Shown here: positions 9,632-20,778 of the stretch, one piece after another
How the letters are laid out: every line of letters starts with the position of its first letter
Numbering within the stretch: the stretch's first letter is position 1
From: Spirochaetales bacterium
GTDB lineage: Bacteria; Spirochaetota; Spirochaetia; Treponematales; UBA12059
Length of the DNA stretch: 49,624 nt
Direction: 5' to 3'
Assembly (NCBI GenBank): GCA_016926955.1
Contig: JAFGNN010000075.1
Span: 1-49,624 of the forward strand
The notes under the pieces: model-generated
Databases searched by the model: none
What the model was told of the DNA's origin: nothing
What the model saw: the letters and a program-made list of their open reading frames with translations, nothing else
Position numbers and translations under genes: made by a program

Positions 9632-10336
9632 TCAGATTCCCAGATAGGCCGAGACGACGTGCGGGTTCTTCGCCAGACCCGCCGCGGTATCCTCGAGCGC
9701 GACCGCGCCGTTCTCCAGCACGTAGCCGCGGTCGATGGCCTTGAGGCTCTCGCGCACGTTCTGTTCCGTGACCAGGATGGCCACGTCCTTCTTGAGCAGG
9801 GCAAGACGCTCGAAGACCTCCGCAACGATCGAAGGCTGGAGGCCCAGCGAGGGTTCGTCGAGGATGAGGAGCAGCGGGTTGGCCATCAGCGCGCGGCCGA
9901 TGGCCACCATGCGCTGCTGGCCGCCGGACATGGTGCCGACATACTGCCTGAGCCGCTCCTTGAGGATGGGGAAGAGCTCCACCACCATGTCGAGCTGGCG
10001 CTTCGCGATGCCGGCGGCGCGCGGCACCCAGGCGGCGCCGAGCTCGAGATTGTCCGCCACGCTCATGCCCGGGAAGAGCTCGCGTTCCTGCGGCACCAGG
10101 GCGATGCCGGAACGCGCCACCAGGTGCGTGGCCTTTCCGCCGATCTCCAACCCGTCGAATTTCACCGAGCCGGACCATGGCTTCTGCATGCCCATGATCG
10201 TGTTGATGAGCGTGGTCTTGCCGGCGCCGTTCGGCCCGAAGAGCCCGACGGATTCCTTGCCGACCTTCAGGTCGACGCCGAAGAGCACCTTGAGCTTTCC
10301 GTAGCCGGTCTCGAGCCTGTCGATGTCGAGTATCAT
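9632..10336 (-). CDS. livF: branched-chain amino-acid-type ABC transporter ATP-binding protein
   Basis: 234 aa ATPase with Walker A GPNGAGKTT, Q-loop region, ABC signature MSGGQQRM, Walker B LLLILDEPSLGL and the H-loop area replaced by VTEQN as is usual for LivF. It overlaps livG by ATGA. It powers the LivH/LivM permease together with LivG. The genetic setting (KAS-like enzyme upstream, two hydrolases downstream, CoA-transferase and thiolase nearby) suggests that the substrate may be an aromatic or short organic acid or amide rather than an amino acid. Confidence 0.93.
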   Translation of the reverse strand: MILDIDRLETGYGKLKVLFGVDLKVGKESVGLFGPNGAGKTTLINTIMGMQKPWSGSVKFDGLEIGGKATHLVARSGIALVPQERELFPGMSVADNLELGAAWVPRAAGIAKRQLDMVVELFPILKERLRQYVGTMSGGQQRMVAIGRALMANPLLLILDEPSLGLQPSIVAEVFERLALLKKDVAILVTEQNVRESLKAIDRGYVLENGAVALEDTAAGLAKNPHVVSAYLGI

Positions 10337-11052
10337 GCGGCGCCTCCGAGGTACGCTTCGATGACGCGCGGGTTCTTCGACACTTGCTCGTAGGGGCCTT
10401 CGGCGATCAATTCGCCGGCTTCGAGCACGATGACCCGGTGCGTGAGTTCCTTGATGACGCCCATGACGTGCTCCACGACGCCGACCGCAAGCTTCCGCTC
10501 GCGCGCTATCGTCTGCACCTGCGCGATCAGTTCGCGGGTCTCGTCGGCGTTGAGGCCGGCCATCACCTCGTCGAGAAAGAGCACCTCCGGCTCGTTGGCC
10601 AGGGCGCGCGCGATCTCCATCTTCTTTATCTCGAGTATGGTCAACCGCGAAGTGTCGCGGTCGAGCCCGGACAGCCCGAGCGATTCGCAGAGCCCGGCGG
10701 CCTTGGCCCGCGCTGTCTTGAGGCCATGCCTCCGGGCGAAGATCGAACCGACCATGACGTTCTCGATCAAGGAAAGGTTCTCGAGCGGGTGGATCAGCTG
10801 GTAGGTGCGGGCGATGCCCAGGCGGGCGCGCTCGTGGGCCGGCATGTAGGTGACGTCGCGTCCCTTGTACTCGACCCTGCCGGAGCTCGGCATGATGATG
10901 CCCGACACCAGGTTGATGAAAGTCGTCTTGCCCGCGCCGTTCGGTCCTATGATGCCGAGTATCTCCCCTTCATCCATGGAGAACGACACGTCGTTGACCG
11001 CGACGAGACCGAGGAAGGCGCGGGTCAGGTGTTCGGTTTTGAGCTTGGTCAT
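10333..11052 (-). CDS. livG: branched-chain amino-acid-type ABC transporter ATP-binding protein
   Basis: 239 aa ATPase. Walker A is GPNGAGKTTFIN and Walker B is VLFLDEVMAGL. The expected LSxGQ signature is replaced by LTILEIKKMEIARAL, a variation common in LivG proteins. VEHVM supplies the H-loop. The start at 11052 overlaps the livM stop (ATGA), and the livG stop overlaps livF (ATGA). The longer ORF reaching 11484 is out-of-frame sequence over livM. Confidence 0.93.
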   Translation of the reverse strand: MTKLKTEHLTRAFLGLVAVNDVSFSMDEGEILGIIGPNGAGKTTFINLVSGIIMPSSGRVEYKGRDVTYMPAHERARLGIARTYQLIHPLENLSLIENVMVGSIFARRHGLKTARAKAAGLCESLGLSGLDRDTSRLTILEIKKMEIARALANEPEVLFLDEVMAGLNADETRELIAQVQTIARERKLAVGVVEHVMGVIKELTHRVIVLEAGELIAEGPYEQVSKNPRVIEAYLGGAA

Positions 11053-11984
11053 TCGGCCCTCCCCTCGGCGCGGCGCAGGCCCTTCCGGGCCAGGCCGTAG
11101 AGTCCCTGCGGCATGAAGAGAATGACGACGACGATGATGACGCCGTACACCACCAGGTGTCCGTAGGGCAGGCGCAGCTTGAGCCACTCGGAGGAAAGCC
11201 CGAGCAGGATGGCTCCGAACACCGGCCCGATTGTGCTGTGGATGCCTCCGAGCAGCGCGATGGCCAGGGGAAGCAAGGTGAAGTTCGCGTCGAAGACGCT
11301 GTCCGGCGTCGCGAAGCCGTAGGACTGCACGTAGATGCCGCCGAGCAGGCCCTGGATCGCCGAGGTGATGACGAAGGTGGCGAGCAGCCAGCGGAAAATG
11401 TCGACGCCGCTCGATCGCGCCGCCGTCTCGTTGTTGCGGATGGCGGTGAGCGCGAAATGGAACTTGGACTTCTCGAACCACCACGAGGCGCCGAGAGCCA
11501 CGGCGAGTCCGCCGAGCGTGAGCCAGTAGAGGGCCGCGGCCGATCCGCCGAGCATGACGCCGTCCAGCACCACGCCCTCGGGACCGCCCGTGAAGTCGTG
11601 GAGGTTGTGGATGACGATGCGGAAAATCTCAGCGAGCGCGAGCGTCACGATGGAAAAGTACATGGCGCGCAGGCGCAGGATCAGGAAGCCGATGAGCAGG
11701 GCGGCGGCGCCCGCGAATACCGGCGCGAACGCGAGGCTGAGCCAGTCGCCCATTCCCGCGCGGAGCACTCCGAGCGCGGTGGCGTAGGCGCCGAGGCCGA
11801 AGAGGCCGGCGATGCCGAAGCTGATCTGCCCCGAGCGCAGGAGCATGTCCCAGGTGAGGGCCAGGGCCATGTACATGATCACGTTGCGGGCGACCTGGAG
11901 CGGATAGGCGCCGGCGAAGGCGGGCAAGGACACCGCGAGGGCGCCTGCCGCGAAAGCGAGCGCGCGAAGGAGGTTCCTGTTCAC
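11049..11984 (-). CDS. livM: branched-chain amino-acid-type ABC transporter permease LivM
   Basis: 311 aa, 8-10 membrane segments, with the LivM landmarks GQISFGIAGLFGLGAYA, TGGPEG, and a conserved cytoplasmic loop (AIRNNETAARSSGVD) that contacts the ATPase. I choose a GTG start at 11984, overlapping the livH stop as GTGA, because GGAGG lies 5 nt upstream. An ATG four codons earlier (11996) would put the Shine-Dalgarno inside the gene. The ORF extending to 12683 is shadow sequence over livH. Confidence 0.92.
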   Translation of the reverse strand: MNRNLLRALAFAAGALAVSLPAFAGAYPLQVARNVIMYMALALTWDMLLRSGQISFGIAGLFGLGAYATALGVLRAGMGDWLSLAFAPVFAGAAALLIGFLILRLRAMYFSIVTLALAEIFRIVIHNLHDFTGGPEGVVLDGVMLGGSAAALYWLTLGGLAVALGASWWFEKSKFHFALTAIRNNETAARSSGVDIFRWLLATFVITSAIQGLLGGIYVQSYGFATPDSVFDANFTLLPLAIALLGGIHSTIGPVFGAILLGLSSEWLKLRLPYGHLVVYGVIIVVVILFMPQGLYGLARKGLRRAEGRAE

Positions 11985-12904
11985 GACTTCCTCCATTTGA
12001 GCGTGCGCCCCAGGATCACCGCGATGATCAGCACGAAGAAAACGATGTCCGCCCAGCCCCGCGTGGCGCGGAACGCGCGGAGCAGGCTTTCGGCGATGCC
12101 GAGCAGGATCGCTGAGCCGAGGATGCCGGGAATGTTGCCGATGCCCGCCATCGCGACGAGGCTGAAGCTCTTCATGGTGAAGGGGCTCCCGACCGCGGGG
12201 AATATGGCCGAGCGCGTCAGGAACAGCGCGCCCATGCCGCCCACCAGCGCGGCGGCAATGGCGAACACGATGCCGTAGGTGCGGTCCACGTCGATGCCGA
12301 CGATCGCCGCGCCTTTCGGGTTCTGTCCGACGGCGAGGGCCGCCTTGCCGAGCGTGGTGCGGGTCAGGAAGAGCTTGAGGCCGTACGCCATGGCCGCCGC
12401 TACCGCGACGAAGACGAACTGCCAGACGCCGAACGAGGTCTCGCCGATCGTGACCGACGCGGACACGTAGTCGAGCGATATTTTCCTGGTCTGCGAGGTG
12501 AAAAACAGGTTGACCAGCTGGCTGAACATGATGCCGAGGCCGAAGGTCAGGATGAGCTGGTTGAGTTCCGGCGCCTTGAGTGCGCGCCTGATGGTGAGCT
12601 TGTATACGACCCAGCCGAACGCGGCGGTGACCGCGGCCGCGGGAAGCACGGCGATGAGGGGATCCATGCCGGTGGCCCGACACGCGAAATAAGTGGCGTA
12701 CGCCGCGATCATCATGAACTCGCCGTGCGCCAGGTTCACGATGTGGACGATGCCGAGGACGAGGCCCATGGGGATCGCGATCGCCGCGTAGAGGCCGGCT
12801 TGCTGGACGCCGTAAATCAGGACCGTCGGTTTCCAGATCGCCACCAGGATCGCGGCCGCGAGGCCGAGGACGACGAGGATCGTCGTGCGACGTTTCGTTG
12901 CCAT
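11981..12904 (-). CDS. livH: branched-chain amino-acid-type ABC transporter permease LivH
   Basis: 307 aa hydrophobic permease with about eight membrane spans. LivH landmarks are IHIVNLAHGEFMMIAAY near residue 53, the FGLGIMFSQLVNLFF segment and the ATPase-contact loop TTLGKAALAVGQNPKGAAIVGID. An AAAGG ribosome site precedes the ATG. It is separated from livK by 120 nt containing very strong hairpins, which may reduce read-through so that the binding protein is made in excess over the membrane components. Confidence 0.93.
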   Translation of the reverse strand: MATKRRTTILVVLGLAAAILVAIWKPTVLIYGVQQAGLYAAIAIPMGLVLGIVHIVNLAHGEFMMIAAYATYFACRATGMDPLIAVLPAAAVTAAFGWVVYKLTIRRALKAPELNQLILTFGLGIMFSQLVNLFFTSQTRKISLDYVSASVTIGETSFGVWQFVFVAVAAAMAYGLKLFLTRTTLGKAALAVGQNPKGAAIVGIDVDRTYGIVFAIAAALVGGMGALFLTRSAIFPAVGSPFTMKSFSLVAMAGIGNIPGILGSAILLGIAESLLRAFRATRGWADIVFFVLIIAVILGRTLKWRKS

Positions 12905-12931
12905 CTTGCTGCCTTTATGGTCGGTGATGAC

Positions 12932-12977
12932 GCCGCCGCCGGGTCTAAACCCCGGCGGCGGCCCGCGTAGTCGCGGG
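12932..12977 (-). other. two adjacent GC-rich hairpins between livK and livH
   Basis: A perfect 12-bp stem (12932-12943 with 12951-12962, 7-nt loop) is followed by a 6-bp stem CCCGCG/CGCGGG (12962-12977). There is no T-run. The position after a periplasmic binding-protein gene fits mRNA 3'-end protection or partial termination. Confidence 0.6.
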
Positions 12978-13024
12978 AACGGCGCGCGCCGCGCCGCCGC
13001 CCCGCGACACTCCGGGTCGGCTCC

Positions 13025-14254
13025 CTACCAAGCGGGGAAGGGATGGACCGGAGACTCGGTGGCCGCTTCGAACGGCCAGATGACCTCCTGCCGTCCGTTC
13101 TGCCACTGGAGGATCTTCTGCCGCCGGATGCCCTGGTAGGGAATCACGTTCGACTTGGAGAAGGAGATCGTCTCGCCGAGGGGCGAGTCGTAGCTCGTGG
13201 CCGCGAGGGCGGAGATGAGCGCCGCCTTCTCGGTGGTCTTGGCCGCCGAGATGGCCTCCGCGACGATGTAGATGGCCGAGTAGGAAAGCGGAGCGAAATA
13301 GGTGGCCGGCTCTTCCTTGAACTTCGCGACGAAGCCGTCGTAGAACTTCTTCGACGCGACATTGGTGTCGTTCATCGACGGGGCCCACATGCCGTACAGC
13401 ATGACGTTCTCCGCGAGCTTGGACTTGCCGAAATCGGCCGGCCATCCGGGAGGCGCCCCGAGATAGACGCCGGGGTTGAATTTCATGGCCTTGGCCTGCT
13501 CGAGCATCGGAAGCGCGTCCGCGTCGTAACCGGCCCACAGGAACAGGTCGGGGCCGAACTTCTTGGCCGCCTCGAGCACGGAGGCGTAGTCGCCGCCGCC
13601 GAGGGCCGCGCTCTTGAAGGGCGCGCCGTCGATGACGTAGCCGCCGCCGCCGAAGAGCACCTTGGTGGCGTCCCACGAAGCCTTGCCGAAGGCTCCCTCC
13701 TCGTAGGCGAGGAAGAGCTTCTCGATCTTGATGTCCGGGAACTTCTCCTGGATCGCGGCCCAGCCCTCGGCGTAGCTCGCGCCCTGGTTGTAGTCCCAGG
13801 GGTGCAGGTGGAAGTACCAGGAAGCGTCACCGCCGAGCGCGTTCTCGACGGTGTAGCTCGCCGCGCCCGTCGAGACGACCGGCAGGCCGTACTTCTTGAA
13901 GGCGGGAATCTTGCCGAGTTCGGCGCCGGAGGCCATGCCGCCGACCAGCACCTCGACGCCGTCCACCGTCACGAGTTTCTCGACGGCAGCCGCGGCCTTG
14001 TCGGCCTTGAGCTCGTCGTCGACCACCACAAGCTCGAGCAGCTTCTTGCCGCCGTCGACCATGACGCCGCCCGCCGCGTTGATTTCCTCGATCGCGAGCT
14101 GGGCGGCCATGCTGCCCTGCCTGCCGGTGATGTCGCCGAGCGGCCAGATGCCGCCGATCTTGATGGTGCCCACGGGCTTCTTCTCGCATCCGGTCATCGC
14201 GAGCGTCCCGATCACGAGCAGGGCGATCGCCAGAATAGCGAACCCTTTCTTCAT
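13025..14254 (-). CDS. livK: substrate-binding lipoprotein of the LIV-type transporter
   Basis: 409 aa. The N-terminal signal peptide MKKGFAILAIALLVIGTLAM ends in a lipobox LAMTGC with lipidated Cys23. The mature part is a type I periplasmic binding protein (TIKIGGIWPLGDITGRQG, then INAAGGV near residue 60), as in LivK-like receptors. GAGGAGG precedes the ATG. It would capture the ligand outside the membrane and deliver it to LivHM. The ligand class is unknown; Trp and Phe/Tyr-rich stretches (WYFHLHPWDYNQG, LFLWAGYDAD) could line the cleft. Confidence 0.92.
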   Translation of the reverse strand: MKKGFAILAIALLVIGTLAMTGCEKKPVGTIKIGGIWPLGDITGRQGSMAAQLAIEEINAAGGVMVDGGKKLLELVVVDDELKADKAAAAVEKLVTVDGVEVLVGGMASGAELGKIPAFKKYGLPVVSTGAASYTVENALGGDASWYFHLHPWDYNQGASYAEGWAAIQEKFPDIKIEKLFLAYEEGAFGKASWDATKVLFGGGGYVIDGAPFKSAALGGGDYASVLEAAKKFGPDLFLWAGYDADALPMLEQAKAMKFNPGVYLGAPPGWPADFGKSKLAENVMLYGMWAPSMNDTNVASKKFYDGFVAKFKEEPATYFAPLSYSAIYIVAEAISAAKTTEKAALISALAATSYDSPLGETISFSKSNVIPYQGIRRQKILQWQNGRQEVIWPFEAATESPVHPFPAW

Positions 14255-14345: not shown

Positions 14346-15365
14346 TTATCCTTCGGAGTACGGCCCCCACTGTATGACCGTGGAGGCCCACACGAAGCCC
14401 AGGCCCGCGCCGACGAAAACGACGGTGTCCCCGTCCTTGACCTTGCCCGCCTTAAGGCCTAGCTCCAGCGAAAGCACCTGGTCGTTCTGGCCGATATGGC
14501 CGTACTCGTCGAGGTAAGTGCTCTGCCCGGGCGACAGGCCGAGCTCGGCGAGCGCGGCGTCATGGGCGCTTTTCTTGAAGTGCAGGATGGCGAGGTAGTC
14601 GATGCCGCCTTGCTCGGACTTTCCGGAGCGCCTGAGGGCCTCGCGGATGACCGCGTAGAAATTCGGCATCGTCTTCTCGCCGAGCTTGGCCTTGAAGGTC
14701 GGCTCGTCGGGAACGATGAAATGCGCCTTGGCCTCGTCGCCGGGCTTCGGGGGCCAGGCCTTCGCGCCGAGGGTGGGCACGACGCAGAGCTCCGAGAAGG
14801 ACCCGTCGCCACGGAAGGCGCTGGCGAGCACGGCGTTCCTTCCCGCGTTCTTCCGCAGGACGAGGGCGGCGCCGCCGGAGCCGATGTCCATCATGAAACG
14901 GGTGCTCGGCTCCGCCAGATCGATGAGGTCGTTGTTGCGGTAACCGGAGACAAGGAGAACGGTCGAAAGGTCGTCGCGGGCCAGCATGAGGCTTTTGGCC
15001 ACGTCGAGGGCCGCCATCATGGAACCGCACATGGCCTCCATATCGAAGCTCCAGGCGTTCGCGGCCCCGATCTTCTCCGAAACGTACAGGCCGGCCAGCC
15101 AGCAGGGGTAGTCCTTGTGCTGGGCGCCGCACCAGATGACCAGGTCGACCCCGCTCCCCTCGACGCCCGCGTCCGCGAGCGCGACGCGGGCGGCCCGGAG
15201 TCCCATCTCGGCGGTCGTGTCCCCGGGACCGGCTACCGGCTTGCGCTTGACCCCGAATTTGAGGGCGATGACGTCCTCGGGCACTCCGGTGGCCGTTGCA
15301 AGGTCCGAGGCTGAAAGGAAGGCCGACGGCAACCAGGTGCCATGGCCGATGATCCCCACGTGCAT
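14346..15365 (-). CDS. ketoacyl synthase III-like (thiolase superfamily) protein with altered triad
   Basis: 339 aa, thiolase-fold. The nucleophile Cys113 is present (EAMCGSMMAAL). The HQAN motif of FabH aligns with LHFKK, keeping His262 but losing the Asn. The GNTS motif aligns with YGHIGQ, replacing the third catalytic residue, Asn, by His290. A Cys-His-His set could still support acyl transfer or condensation of acyl-CoAs, but it is not a standard fatty-acid FabH. GGAG precedes the chosen ATG; eight further in-frame codons upstream lack one. It heads the same-strand run leading into livK and sits back-to-back with the regulator and second KAS-like gene. Confidence 0.75.
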   Translation of the reverse strand: MHVGIIGHGTWLPSAFLSASDLATATGVPEDVIALKFGVKRKPVAGPGDTTAEMGLRAARVALADAGVEGSGVDLVIWCGAQHKDYPCWLAGLYVSEKIGAANAWSFDMEAMCGSMMAALDVAKSLMLARDDLSTVLLVSGYRNNDLIDLAEPSTRFMMDIGSGGAALVLRKNAGRNAVLASAFRGDGSFSELCVVPTLGAKAWPPKPGDEAKAHFIVPDEPTFKAKLGEKTMPNFYAVIREALRRSGKSEQGGIDYLAILHFKKSAHDAALAELGLSPGQSTYLDEYGHIGQNDQVLSLELGLKAGKVKDGDTVVFVGAGLGFVWASTVIQWGPYSEG

Positions 15366-15432
15366 AGTCGCTCCAAAGGCATGAATCATCTCTCAACGGT
15401 AGCATTGTCCGCTTTCCCTGATCCGTCAAGCA

Positions 15433-15583
15433 GAAAAACATAAAGACACCACAGAGGCACGGAGACAGGGAGGGGGAATGGAGAGGAATCGGACACTAGC
15501 AACGATGATCCTATGCATCGGCCTTTGCTTTCCATTCTTCCTTCTTCCCTCCCCTCCTCCGTGTCTCCGTGGTTTCATCTTGT
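15433..15583. repeat. purine-rich dispersed repeat as an inverted pair (MITE-like)
   Basis: The left arm contains ACACCACAGAGGCACGGAGA followed by G/A-rich DNA. The right arm ends in CCTCCGTGTCTCCGTGGTTT, which is its approximate reverse complement, again flanked by C/T-rich DNA. The arms enclose about 50 bp. The 15366-15683 gap (318 bp) holds this element and the promoter of the regulator gene; I see no gene in it. Antisense ORFs there translate to PPCLRGS-like strings typical of this repeat. Confidence 0.75.
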
Positions 15584-15598
15584 CGGTACAGTTCTCCA

Positions 15599-15627
15599 TT
15601 GCGCGATCGGGAATCCGGTGCGATACT
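15599..15627 (+). promoter_or_regulatory. probable sigma-70 promoter of the tandem TetR gene
   Basis: TTGCGC (15599-15604), a 17-bp spacer and GATACT (15622-15627) lie 57 nt before the ATG. The -35 begins just outside the right arm of the repeat. Confidence 0.5.
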
Positions 15628-15683
15628 GGGGTGAACAGTGAATCGTCTCTCATGCCAAAGTACACGGAATTCAAGGAGAACGA

Positions 15684-16865
15684 ATGCCGGAAGCAGGAGC
15701 TCCCAAGGCTTCGCCCGTCGACACCCCTCCGACCGGAGAGAAGCTCGAGCGCGCGGCCCAGAAGCTGTTCGCGAGCCGTTGGTACGCGACCGTCTCCGTC
15801 GCGGAAATCTGCCGCGAGGCGGGCGTCTCGAACGGCATCTTCTATAGATACTTCCGCAACAAGGAGGAGCTGTTCCGCAAGCTCCTCGGGCGCATACTCG
15901 CCTCGATCGAAGAGGCGCTCCGCGGCGTCGCGGGCGACGGGCTCCATGGTCGCCTCGAGAATTTCGTCGGCAGGCTCACCGGATACACGAGATCAAATCC
16001 CGACCTGATCGCGATCTTCCGCGAAGGCCAGTACCGCTTCTTCGACTACGAGCGCTCGCTGATCGAAATCTACCGCAACGCCCTCTCGACGGCGCTCGGA
16101 AGGCGTTGCGGGATGGCCGACTACCTGTTCGCGCTCGGAGGGGTGCGCTTCGCGAGCATACGACGCGCCCTGCAGGGCATCGACCTCGACACCTCCGAAC
16201 TCGTCCGCATTCTCGAACACGGCGCCTTCCCGGGCATGGGCTTCGACCCCGCCCGGGTCTTCGAAATCGAGGTAAAGCCTCCATCGATCGTCGCGGCGCC
16301 AGCCACGAGGGAGCGCCTTCTGCAAGCCGGCAAACGGCTGTTCGGCGAGAAGGGCTACCATGAAACCGCCATCCACGAAATAACGGACGCCGCCAAGCTG
16401 GCGGTCGGCTCTTTCTACCTGCACTTCCCCTCGAAGGAAGCCTTCTACGCGGAACTGATCCGCCTTGTGGGCCATGAGGTCCGTCGCTTCATCTCGACGA
16501 ACCTGTCCTCAGGGCTCAACGAACTCGAGCGGGAGCTGCAGGGTGTGTGGCTCTTCTCCATATTCCTGTCGATCGACCGCTGGTGCTACAGCGTGGTCCG
16601 CGAGGCGGAGTTCGTCCTTCCGGCCGAGGTCAAAGCCTATTACGACGCGTTCGAAGCGGGTTACCGCCGTCACCCGGAATCCGGAACCCCCGGGGCGCGC
16701 GACCCCGTATCGGCAGCGCGAGTCAATTTCCTGCTCGGCATCTCCCACTATTTCGGACTGGAAATCGTTTTCGACCACTCGCCGGGGAACGCCCGGGCGC
16801 TCATAGAGGAAATCGGTCTCAGGCTGGCGGCCGGCTTCGATCCCCTTCGAGCCGGCGACGACTGA
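15684..16865 (+). CDS. transcriptional regulator with two TetR-type DNA-binding domains
   Basis: 393 aa, roughly double a normal TetR regulator. The first HTH spans ~18-64 (AEICREAGVSNGIFYRYFRN) and is followed by a helical region. A second complete HTH spans ~209-255 (EITDAAKLAVGSFYLHFPS), followed by a second ligand-binding-like helical domain. Both helices 3 show the YxxFxxKE pattern, so both look competent. AAGGAG lies 5 nt before the ATG. It is probably the repressor of the downstream KAS-like, CoA-transferase and thiolase genes, and perhaps of the divergent liv run. A palindromic TGACC/GGTCA array in the thiolase promoter is the likely operator. Confidence 0.88.
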   Translation: MPEAGAPKASPVDTPPTGEKLERAAQKLFASRWYATVSVAEICREAGVSNGIFYRYFRNKEELFRKLLGRILASIEEALRGVAGDGLHGRLENFVGRLTGYTRSNPDLIAIFREGQYRFFDYERSLIEIYRNALSTALGRRCGMADYLFALGGVRFASIRRALQGIDLDTSELVRILEHGAFPGMGFDPARVFEIEVKPPSIVAAPATRERLLQAGKRLFGEKGYHETAIHEITDAAKLAVGSFYLHFPSKEAFYAELIRLVGHEVRRFISTNLSSGLNELERELQGVWLFSIFLSIDRWCYSVVREAEFVLPAEVKAYYDAFEAGYRRHPESGTPGARDPVSAARVNFLLGISHYFGLEIVFDHSPGNARALIEEIGLRLAAGFDPLRAGDD

Positions 16866-16951: not shown

Positions 16952-17962
16952 ATGGCAAAGGCGCGCATAGCGGGCACCGGGATCTACGTTCCGGGCGAGC
17001 CGATAGGGAACGAGGAGCTCAAGATCCTCGCGGGCATCGAGTTCGACGCGCCCAGGCTCGAAGAGAAGGTCGGCATCCGGACGCGGCACGCCGCGCGCCT
17101 CCGCGGCATCGACGAGAGCACCGCCGATTTCGCCGAGAAGGCCGCGCGAGCGGCTATCGCTGACGCGGGCATCGATCCCCTCGACATCGGCCTGTTCATT
17201 GTAGGAACCGACACGCCCGAATACGTGTCGCCCGCCACGGCCATCCTGGTGCAGGGACGCGTGCAGGGCGGACAGCGCGACTCGGGCGCTTTCGACGTGG
17301 CCGCGTCCTGCGCGAGCTTCACGACCGCGCTGGACGCGGCCGCGCGCATGATCTCCGGCGACGCCAGCCTCCGTTACGCCGTGGTGGTCGGCGTCTACGA
17401 CATGCCCGCGCATGTCAGGCCCGGCGACGCCTTCGGCTGGTCCATCTTCGCGGACGGCGCGGGCGCCGTGGTGCTCGAGCGCGTAGAGGACGACTCCGCG
17501 TCGGGATACGTCACGGGCCACATGGTGGCCGACGGGACCCAGTGGAACTATGTCGGCGTCTACGCAGGCGGGACGCGGAAGCCCGTTACGAAGGAACTGC
17601 TCGACTCGGGGCAGTACGGGCTCGAGCTGTTGCAGCGGCTGCCCGGCGACCGCAACGTCAAGCTCTGGCCGCCCATCGTGCGCGCGCTGTGCGCGAAAGG
17701 CGGGGTGCCGCTCGACAGGATCGCCGCATTCGTGTTCACCCAGATCAACAAGTCGGTGATCGAACAGGTGATGGACGAGCTCGGCAGCCCGCGCGAGCTC
17801 GCGCCCATGGTCATGGACAGGTACGGCTACACGGGCTCAGGCTGCGTGCCGATGGCCTTCCACCACGCGGTCAAGGACGGTCGGATAAAGCGCGGCGACG
17901 CGGTGGTGTTCTGCGCGTCCGGGGCCGGCCTCGCGGTGGCGGCGAACCTGCTTGTTTACTGA
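16952..17962 (+). CDS. ketoacyl synthase III-like protein with Cys but neither catalytic His nor Asn
   Basis: 336 aa KAS III/FabH-fold protein. Cys120 (AASCASF) aligns with the FabH nucleophile. The HQAN motif reads FTQINKS, with Thr264 in place of His. The DRHGNTS motif reads DRYGYTGSG, with Tyr294 in place of Asn. Loss of both residues that drive decarboxylative condensation, with retention of Cys, suggests an acyltransferase, thioesterase-like or non-decarboxylating role. AGGAG precedes the ATG. The operon context (CoA-transferase, thiolase, tandem TetR) places it in acyl-CoA metabolism, not in fatty-acid initiation; no acyl-carrier or other fab gene is adjacent. Confidence 0.8.
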   Translation: MAKARIAGTGIYVPGEPIGNEELKILAGIEFDAPRLEEKVGIRTRHAARLRGIDESTADFAEKAARAAIADAGIDPLDIGLFIVGTDTPEYVSPATAILVQGRVQGGQRDSGAFDVAASCASFTTALDAAARMISGDASLRYAVVVGVYDMPAHVRPGDAFGWSIFADGAGAVVLERVEDDSASGYVTGHMVADGTQWNYVGVYAGGTRKPVTKELLDSGQYGLELLQRLPGDRNVKLWPPIVRALCAKGGVPLDRIAAFVFTQINKSVIEQVMDELGSPRELAPMVMDRYGYTGSGCVPMAFHHAVKDGRIKRGDAVVFCASGAGLAVAANLLVY

Positions 17963-17968
17963 ATATCA

Positions 17969-18045
17969 GAAGAAACCACAGAGGCACGGAGACAAGAGGG
18001 AGAATAAGAGAAGGAACAAAATAGAAGATTCGGAACAGCGATAAA
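17969..18045. repeat. single-arm copy of the purine-rich dispersed repeat
   Basis: AACCACAGAGGCACGGAGAC and the following G/A-rich tract fill the gap between the KAS-like and CoA-transferase genes. Only one arm is present. No promoter or terminator is evident in it. Confidence 0.75.
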
Positions 18046-18102: not shown

Positions 18103-19413
18103 ATGTCGAGGTGGGATGACGAATACAGGTCGCGCGTGAGGACGATCGACGAGGCGATCAGTTGCATCGAGTCGGGTTTCGACGTGGTGGTCGGGCAGTG
18201 CGCGAGCGAGCCCCAGGGCACCATGGCCCGCTTGCACACGCTCGCGCCGGCGGTGCGCGATGTCCGGGTATTCTCGGTGCTTACCCTCAAGCCCTATGAC
18301 TTCTACATGAAACCGGAGATGCAAGGCCATTTCGAACTGGCGAGCTGGTTCCACGCGCCGGGCTCGCGCGCGGCCCTCAAGGCAGGCACGGGTACGGTCA
18401 CTTTCGTGCCGAACATGCTGCACCGCGCGGCGAGCGACCGCATCCACGCCCGGCCGCCCGAGGTTTTCATCGGCACCTGCACGCCGCCGGACAAGCACGG
18501 CTTCGTCTCGCTCTCGCTCGGCATCACCTACGAGAAGGACATACTCGAGAAAGCCCGCCACGTGATCCTCGAGGTGAACCCGAGGCTCCCGCGGACGCTG
18601 GGCGATACGCACCTCCACGTGTCGCGGGTCACCTATTTCGTCGAACACGAGCAGGAAGTGCCGTCCCTTCCCTCGCCGGAGCCTTCCGCCGTCGACCTCC
18701 GCATCGGATCGTACATCGCGGACCTGATCGAGGACGGTTCGACCATCCAGCTCGGCATCGGCGGCATCCCGAACGCCGCCGCGCTCGCGCTCAAGGGCAA
18801 GAAGGACCTGGGCGTGCACACCGAGATGTTCGTCGACTCCATGATGGAGCTCTACGAGCTGGGCGTGATCACGAACTCGCGCAAGGCGCTCAAGAAGGAC
18901 AAGTTCATCGCCACCTTCGCCTTCGGCAGCCGCAGGCTCTACGACTGGCTCGACGACAACGTCGCGGTCGAATTCCAGCGCGGCTCCTGGGTGAACGATC
19001 CGGGGGTGGTCGCCCGGAACTCGCGCATGGTCTCCATAAACACCTGCCTTTCGGTCGATTTCACGGGTCAGGTGGCCAGCGAATCCATCGGCACGAGCCA
19101 GTATTCCGGCACGGGCGGGCAGTCGGACACGGCGCAGGGGGCGGTGGCGGGCTTCGACGGGCTCGGCAAGTCCATCATCGCCTGCTACGCCACCGCGAAG
19201 AACGGAACCCTCAGCACCATAGTCCCGACGCTCGCCGAAGGAAGCGCCGTCACCCTGCACCGCTCTTTCGTCGACCACGTGGTGACGGAATACGGCGTCG
19301 CGAAGCTGCGCGGACGCACCGTCAAGGAGCGGACCCAGGCCCTGATAGCCGTGGCCGCGCCCGAATTCCGCGAGGAGCTCAAGGCCAAGGCCCGAGCGCT
19401 CGGCTATGCATGA
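18103..19413 (+). CDS. acetyl-CoA hydrolase/transferase family CoA-transferase
   Basis: 436 aa. It matches the family of 4-hydroxybutyrate or butyryl-CoA:acetate CoA-transferases. It has a CoA-binding Gly-rich loop QLGIGGIPNAA, the catalytic Glu in HTEMFVDS, the GTGGQSDTAQGA segment, and the C-terminal VTEYGVAKLRGRT block. It would move CoA between acetate and a short-chain acid, activating an imported acid or recovering acetate. The start at 18103 has GGGAGGAAGG just upstream; 19 extra in-frame codons run into repeat-derived DNA and lack a ribosome site. It lies between the KAS-like gene and the thiolase. Confidence 0.9.
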   Translation: MSRWDDEYRSRVRTIDEAISCIESGFDVVVGQCASEPQGTMARLHTLAPAVRDVRVFSVLTLKPYDFYMKPEMQGHFELASWFHAPGSRAALKAGTGTVTFVPNMLHRAASDRIHARPPEVFIGTCTPPDKHGFVSLSLGITYEKDILEKARHVILEVNPRLPRTLGDTHLHVSRVTYFVEHEQEVPSLPSPEPSAVDLRIGSYIADLIEDGSTIQLGIGGIPNAAALALKGKKDLGVHTEMFVDSMMELYELGVITNSRKALKKDKFIATFAFGSRRLYDWLDDNVAVEFQRGSWVNDPGVVARNSRMVSINTCLSVDFTGQVASESIGTSQYSGTGGQSDTAQGAVAGFDGLGKSIIACYATAKNGTLSTIVPTLAEGSAVTLHRSFVDHVVTEYGVAKLRGRTVKERTQALIAVAAPEFREELKAKARALGYA

Positions 19414-19459: not shown

Positions 19460-19488
19460 TTGACCACGGTCATTGACCGTAGTTTAAT
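19460..19488 (+). promoter_or_regulatory. thiolase promoter with embedded palindromic operator
   Basis: TTGACC (19460-19465), a 17-bp spacer and TTTAAT (19483-19488) form a good sigma-70 promoter. The spacer holds the perfect palindrome ACGGTCATTGACCGT (19466-19480). Together with the -35 this gives three alternating half-sites TGACC, GGTCA and TGACC (19461-19478). A protein bound here would occlude RNA polymerase. The double-TetR protein encoded nearby is the obvious candidate. Confidence 0.7.
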
Positions 19489-19518: not shown

Positions 19519-20778
19519 GTGAGCATGACCAGCATAGTCGGCGCCTACAACACCAAGTTCGGCAGCTTCGTGCAGAAGAACAGGGAGACCGGCGAGGTCA
19601 CCGACCTCAAGAGCATCTACGAGCTCTTCATCGAAGCCGGCCGCGGAGCCCTGGCCGACGCGGGCGTCTCCGCGAAGGACGTGGACGGCGTATGGACCGG
19701 ATCCTGCGCGCCCGGGCTCTTCGCCAACCAGGAGCATATCGGGGCCATCGGCGCGGAAATCGATCCCGAAGGCCTTCGCTTCAAGATGATGACGCGCCTC
19801 GAGGCGGCCTGCGCCTCGGGTTCCGTCGCCCTGTACAACGCCGTCTACGCCGTCGAGTCCGGCCGCGCCAGGGTGGCGCTGGTGCTCGGCGTCGAGAAGA
19901 TGAACCTGCTCAACACCAAGGGCGTCACCCACGCGCTGGCAACCTGCTCGTACTGGCCCGAGGAGGGCGGCACGGGCATGAGCTTCCCCGCCCTGTTCGC
20001 CGAATACGCAAAGGGCTACCAAGCGAAGTACGGCCTTTCCGACACCGAGCTCGCGCGCCAGCTTGCCCACGTCGCGGCGCTCTGCTACCGGAACGGCCTC
20101 GACAATCCGCTGGCCCACTTCGGCAAGGGCAGCCCCGCGGACAAGCTCCAGCTCGTCACCGCGGAGGCCATCCTCGGCCTTCCCGAGGAGAAGAATCCAA
20201 TGATCGCCGCGCCGCTCAGGCTCCACGACTGCTCGCTCGTGACCGACGGCGCCGCCGCCCTCGTCGTCATGCGCACCGACGACGCGAAGAAGGCCGGCAA
20301 GAAAGCCGTCGAGATCGCGGGCATCGGGCATGTCAACGAGCGGCTTGCCATCAGCGTGCGCCCGAACATGCATGAGCTTATGGCCGGCAAGGAAGCCGCG
20401 CGGCGCGCTTTCGCCGAGGCGAAGATGGGCATCGCCGACGTCCAGGTCGCGGAGGTGCACGACTGCTTCACGATCAACCAGATCCTCTGCACCGAGGCGA
20501 TCGGGCTGTCCAAGGACGGAACGGCCGGACTGGATTACGCCGAAGGCCGTTTCGGGCGCGACGATCCGAAATGCTCGGTCAACCTATCCGGCGGCCTCAA
20601 GGCCAAGGGCCATCCGGTCGGCGCAACCGGCGTCTCGATGCACGCATTGCTCTACAAGCAGCTGACCGGGGAGCCCATAGGCGCGACCCGCTCCACCGTC
20701 CCCGAAGCGGGCGTCAGCTTGAATGTCGGCGGCAGCGCCGTGACCAATTGCGTGACGGTGCTCAGAAGGGTTAAGTAA
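19519..20778 (+). CDS. thiolase family protein, SCP-x/acetyl-CoA acetyltransferase type
   Basis: 419 aa. Thiolase landmarks are the nucleophile in RLEAACASGSVAL, EVHDCFTINQ with the catalytic His of the HDC variant seen in SCP-x-like thiolases, and GGLKAKGHPVGATG near the C-terminus. It would cleave 3-ketoacyl-CoA to acetyl-CoA or run the reverse. I take the GTG at 19519, with GAGGAGG 5 nt upstream; an ATG two codons later is an alternative. Enzymes of this type often pair with a DUF35 OB-fold protein, but none is adjacent. It has its own operator-containing promoter. Its last ~34 bp are duplicated downstream. Confidence 0.88.
   Translation: MSMTSIVGAYNTKFGSFVQKNRETGEVTDLKSIYELFIEAGRGALADAGVSAKDVDGVWTGSCAPGLFANQEHIGAIGAEIDPEGLRFKMMTRLEAACASGSVALYNAVYAVESGRARVALVLGVEKMNLLNTKGVTHALATCSYWPEEGGTGMSFPALFAEYAKGYQAKYGLSDTELARQLAHVAALCYRNGLDNPLAHFGKGSPADKLQLVTAEAILGLPEEKNPMIAAPLRLHDCSLVTDGAAALVVMRTDDAKKAGKKAVEIAGIGHVNERLAISVRPNMHELMAGKEAARRAFAEAKMGIADVQVAEVHDCFTINQILCTEAIGLSKDGTAGLDYAEGRFGRDDPKCSVNLSGGLKAKGHPVGATGVSMHALLYKQLTGEPIGATRSTVPEAGVSLNVGGSAVTNCVTVLRRVK

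Follow-up and report, generated by a model that had tools for sequence, protein, structure and literature searches.

A single open reading frame in this window (the whole stretch of 49,624 nucleotides analyzed here) carries two TetR regulators in one polypeptide, and the locus raises the question of how such a protein would read DNA and which genes it would control. We consider it probable that the regulator is a single-chain asymmetric repressor of the Mce3R type, which binds TGAATC-NN-CTCTCA and represses both of the divergent units at the locus.

The double regulator and its gene neighborhood

The regulator gene is one intact ORF of 393 codons in a single frame with an ATG start, and the genome bin from which it comes is 3.38 Mb in size. 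Pfam TetR_N (PF00440) matches the 393-residue protein twice with a total of 100.5 bits, and each match alone also exceeds the cut-off of 24 bits (Table 1). The first and second halves, referred to here as M1 and M2, are only 17% identical to each other, and among the eight TetR genes of the source genome this is the only double one. The regulator is a member of the TetR family with two complete, non-identical TetR units per chain. An earlier note on this DNA had read the ORF as two complete TetR regulators, and this is confirmed by the single frame, the two TetR_N matches and the predicted fold. The helix-turn-helix ranges it gave (residues ~18-64 and ~209-255) are correct, the separate helical domain following each of them is seen in two AlphaFold models, and the good ribosome site it mentioned is the AAGGAG before the start codon.

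The regulator gene sits between the genes of two distinct KAS III-like synthases, in a conserved CoA-transferase/transporter cluster. The first of them is divergent from the regulator in 29 of the 31 loci checked, the other two loci being cut by a contig end. The order of divergent KAS III, regulator, second KAS III (where present) and CoA-transferase, the last three pointing the same way, is kept in these loci with few exceptions wherever the contig is long enough. The ABC transporter genes lie behind the divergent KAS III gene in many loci, and a thiolase gene follows the CoA-transferase gene in some.

Table 1. Features of the window around the double TetR gene.
Feature	Position	Strand	Basis or remark
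Branched-chain-amino-acid-type ABC transporter genes (binding protein, two permeases, two ATPases)	9632..14254	-	
Divergent KAS III-like 3-oxoacyl synthase (PRK06840 type)	14346..15365	-	415 bits, cut-off 315
Distal candidate operator TGAATCATCTCTCA	15382..15395	+	adjoins divergent KAS III gene; footprinting of relatives
Possible regulator promoter TTGCGC-N17-GATACT	15599..15627	+	assigned by eye
Proximal candidate operator TGAATCGTCTCTCA	15639..15652	+	32 nt 5' of regulator ATG; footprinting of relatives
Shine-Dalgarno-like AAGGAG	15673..15678	+	before regulator ATG
Double TetR-family regulator, 393 aa, single ORF	15684..16865	+	Pfam; fused in all relatives found
First TetR_N helix-turn-helix (M1 head)	15753..15878	+	Pfam TetR_N, 54.5 bits
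Linker joining the two TetR halves, about residues 180-207	16221..16304	+	length conserved, invariant Phe
Second TetR_N helix-turn-helix (M2 head)	16317..16457	+	Pfam TetR_N, 56 bits
Second KAS III-like synthase, downstream of regulator	16952..17962	+	
Acetyl-CoA hydrolase / acyl-CoA:acetate CoA-transferase family protein	18106..19413	+	
TTGACCACGGTCATTGACC array before thiolase gene	19460..19478	+	most likely site of another, single-domain TetR (contig C63)
Thiolase	19519..20778	+	

A conserved paired site and its predicted role

When the intergenic stretch between the divergent genes was aligned for four close relatives, two blocks proved conserved, and the motif TGAATC-NN-CTCTCA was defined from them. 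In the window this gives two candidate operators with a common orientation, both located in the gap that separates the regulator from the divergent KAS III gene. Allowing up to two mismatches, at least one copy was found in 32/32 held-out orthologues and two same-strand copies in 24/32, while the corresponding means for shuffled upstream regions were 0.31 and 0. A matrix scan of the regulator strand in Holophagaceae found two sites of at least 14 bits each in all 16 loci with enough upstream DNA, the next best scoring below 2; some of these species also contributed to the matrix. An exact search of the 3.38-Mb genome yields two copies of the motif, both at this locus (0.08 copies expected), and the rest of the 49.6-kb window contains nothing that scores 8 bits or more with the footprint matrix.

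The half-sites of the motif are unequal, TGAATC on one side and TGAGAG on the other strand. The outer TGA/TCA pairs are complementary in 86-100% of 64 sites and the three inner pairs in 0%, which is the form expected of two diverged homologous heads arranged in pseudo-symmetry. The proximal operator lies 11 nt past the -10-like GATACT and the distal one a short distance 5' of the KAS III start codon. Both positions are suited to repression, with promoters assigned by eye; when the intergenic region was scanned for consensus promoters none was detected, TTGCGC-N17-GATACT included.

From these sequence features we infer that the regulator binds TGAATC-NN-CTCTCA and represses. The two unlike TetR halves would pack together like the identical subunits of an ordinary TetR, forming one pseudo-dimer that presents two different DNA-reading heads, and each head would read one half-site. 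The two sites lie near the starts of the divergent units, KAS III with the ABC transporter on one side and the regulator with KAS III, CoA-transferase and perhaps thiolase on the other, and the bound regulator would repress both units and its own gene. Repression would end when an acyl-CoA, probably a short-chain one, binds to the helical domains.

The gene neighborhood, additional sites in other genomes and the nearest structures led us to a short-chain acyl-CoA as the best guess for the ligand, and the regulator is likely to function as an acyl-CoA-responsive repressor. The single-domain TetR structures nearest by sequence or fold include the acyl-CoA binders SaFadR, FadR and FasR. Extra exact copies of the motif were found in some relatives before thiolase, acyl-CoA dehydrogenase, 3-aminobutyryl-CoA ammonia-lyase and FadX-like CoA-transferase genes. 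Such extra regulon sites occur in few genomes. In L093, L094 and L096 the motif lies near position 1501, just before the ammonia-lyase gene of lysine fermentation; we read its presence there in three genomes of one genus as an expansion of the predicted regulon. Lysine fermentation was rejected as the core function. The kal gene is absent from the source genome and a nearby motif was found in only 4 of the 13 genomes which carry kal, so this pathway would be no more than a side branch of the regulon.

Another possibility is that the motif belongs to a different factor, such as an activator of KAS III/CoA-transferase operons, and that the double TetR binds elsewhere or has a modulating role. 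Motif and protein are linked solely through co-occurrence and position, and copies at chance level are present in 2/13 related and 2/60 Holophagaceae genomes without the regulator. These numbers compare with 25/26 related genomes with the gene (Fisher p 5e-7) and 12/17 Holophagaceae with the gene (Fisher p 1e-8), both p values being inflated by kinship. The motif also occupies an autoregulatory position by the regulator gene in nearly every orthologue, it is near-absent elsewhere in the same genome and in genomes without the gene, and no other regulator gene is kept at the locus among the loci checked. We regard a different factor as unlikely.

Assembly of the two halves and the TGACC array

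Structure prediction, which the earlier note had proposed as a check, gave two confident models: one of the 393-residue protein from an 18-sequence alignment (pLDDT 88.8, pTM 0.85) and one of a Holophagaceae orthologue, 52% identical to it (pLDDT 89.8, pTM 0.89). Each half consists of about nine helices and matches many TetR structures. The best PDB match over both halves is Mce3R (PDB 9b7y), ranked first by Foldseek for the window's protein with an E value of 8.8e-8. Mce3R aligns with this model over 333 residues (Z 23.1, rmsd 5.3 Å) and with that of the orthologue over 346 residues (Z 23.9, rmsd 5.6 Å), while the Z scores of single TetRs do not exceed 15.5 and 17.3, with about half the length aligned. 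Given rmsd values of 5.3-5.6 Å, the packing of the halves would be similar to that of Mce3R and not identical. In the models, one chain is predicted to fold as an M1-M2 pseudo-dimer of the Mce3R kind with an intrachain four-helix bundle.

Mce3R (Rv1963c) of Mycobacterium tuberculosis is a double-TFR repressor and the one double TetR with a solved structure (PMC11667970). By cryo-EM it is an intramolecular pseudo-dimer on a non-palindromic site, where one chain supplies both heads for each asymmetric site and the chains then form a C2 homodimer (PMC11667970). Pairing of equal halves (M1-M1 and M2-M2) was weighed there as an alternative and excluded by the structure (PMC11667970). The same like-with-like assembly, formally possible for any double TetR, would give our regulator four heads per dimer and two symmetric DNA-binding surfaces, with which it could span palindromes or clusters of half-sites, the TGACC array for example, and the candidate operators do occur as a conserved pair. 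Yet the conserved operator is never palindromic at the inner three pairs, the confident monomer models match over both halves a protein for which this assembly is excluded, and the TGACC array points to another TetR. We consider like-with-like pairing very improbable. By comparison with Mce3R, where one chain already gives both heads, the four-headed dimer of the earlier note would not be the smallest functional unit; by the same analogy a four-headed, possibly bridging form may also occur.

The triple TGACC array that the earlier note had seen in the thiolase promoter and offered as a target of the double TetR does exist, with the three TGACC copies at 19461-19478. It is conserved in three genomes of the same genus. 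As an operator of the double TetR it was rejected: its score with the footprint matrix is under 8 bits, it is missing before the thiolase gene of L029, a locus that has the double regulator, and its 20-mer TTGACCACGGTCATTGACCG is found again on contig C63, flanked by an SDR gene and by the gene for a separate TetR of the single-domain type. This second locus lies at L060 1500-1540 (G000:C63:2692-2730), and the single-domain TetR encoded there has a sub-threshold FadR match. The recurrence on C63 and the absence from L029 are most simply explained if the array is the site of the C63 TetR, and the sequences make this the most likely assignment. The thiolase array and the C63 array probably constitute a small acyl-CoA regulon of their own, controlled by that TetR. 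Elsewhere in the genome, most of the TGACC-NN-GGTCA copies inspected are intragenic.

Returning to the single-chain repressor on TGAATC-NN-CTCTCA, the pairing of its operators together with the dimer formed by Mce3R makes DNA bridging or looping between the two sites plausible by analogy. Their spacing ranges from 108 to 353 bp across loci. A helical-phase test gave p 0.24 with all data (14 spacing classes; p 0.02 with 10), and helical phasing was dropped as support for looping. With such spacings and the failed phase test, looping is put forward here as a conjecture. The spacing is 257 bp in the window and about 150 bp in many relatives, a difference probably explained by an inverted pair (19-nt arms) of a dispersed repeat which lies between the two operators (15450-15575). 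Copies of this repeat, with CACAGAGGCACGGAGACA / CCGTGTCTCCGTGG, are also present at 17977-17995 and 5558 of the window and at L060 545-650. A more far-reaching proposal is that of a non-actinobacterial lineage in which halves of different ancestry sit on TGAATC and TGAGAG, and paired molecules loop the direct repeats and co-repress both operons; we put it forward tentatively and regard it as rather doubtful. If looping were true, there would be a four-headed bridge as the earlier note had guessed, on sites other than the TGACC array.

Ancestry of the fusion and comparison with known systems

The window itself is known from a single bin assembly, and a frameshift or misassembly that merges two neighboring TetR genes could look alike, but this explanation is refuted, with a negligible probability left to it, by full-length fused relatives (38-88% identity) in 47 independently assembled genomes of Spirochaetota and Acidobacteriota/Holophagaceae, all in one frame and free of stops, with a linker of conserved length and an invariant Phe. 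Both the frameshift check and the survey of split versus fused forms suggested in the earlier note thus came out for the fusion; every full-length relative is fused and no true split copy was found among them. The fused regulator is present in 26 of the 39 genomes of the relatives search (the source genome included), in four further genomes of a phylum sample of 247, and in 17 of 77 genomes of the Holophagaceae set. A candidate split form, L028, was rejected. In L028 1-374 (CAIYXE010000301.1), from a 'Rhizobiales' bin, an inverted piece of the first half of the regulator gene adjoins a Holophagaceae-like copy; this contig end is an assembly chimera, and L028 is probably misbinned.

In a tree of the halves, a supported branch (97/96) separates all M1 from all M2 sequences, and single TetRs from other phyla lie on the M2 side. 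This topology is consistent with a single ancient fusion between two unlike TetRs. A recent internal duplication is unsupported, as the halves are 17% identical and M2 groups with the single TetRs of other phyla. Both halves of L020, L024 and L031 (Holophagaceae) group beside L042, of spirochaete family f4, which suggests that the locus has passed between Acidobacteriota and Spirochaetota.

Searches of open-licence papers found no relevant paper for the motif letters and no description of the family or of its DNA site. The kind of protein is already known from the Mce3R precedent and from 204 putative double TFRs predicted in actinomycetes (PMC11667970), and the present family is best read as a new member of this kind in phyla other than that of Mce3R. 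The operators of Mce3R are long and loosely defined. The family described here gives a double-TetR system of environmental bacteria with dozens of orthologues and a short operator defined by conservation. Its apparent code of one head per half-site (TGAATC, TGAGAG) makes asymmetric DNA reading by a single-chain TetR directly testable, and it lets one ask whether operators need no longer be palindromic once two TetRs are fused. A candidate regulator and site can also be assigned to the conserved KAS III / CoA-transferase / transporter cluster, and the two may prove of use in synthetic circuits as a candidate repressor-operator pair of asymmetric design.

Our regulator and Mce3R both consist of two unlike TetR halves in a chain of about 400 residues, both have non-palindromic operators (predicted in our case) in two copies with autoregulatory placement, and both genes lie beside a lipid-related operon. 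They differ in that they come from different phyla and share 16-17% identity, with sequence similarity limited to the HTH regions; a profile search reaches 9b7y solely via these segments (57 bits). Mce3R has 25-bp sites 53 bp apart, whereas the predicted sites here are compact (14 bp) and 108-353 bp apart, and it is the mce operon that neighbors Mce3R in place of KAS III, CoA-transferase, thiolase and ABC transporter genes. The second half of our regulator in turn aligns with SaFadR (6el2/6en8) over its whole length, both in a profile search (63 bits) and in fold (Z scores of up to 17.3), and acyl-CoA metabolism neighbors are another feature in common with FadR/FasR-type regulators. Unlike the double regulator, these proteins (SaFadR, Bacillus FadR 3whb/3whc and FasR 6o6o) are ordinary one-domain homodimers.
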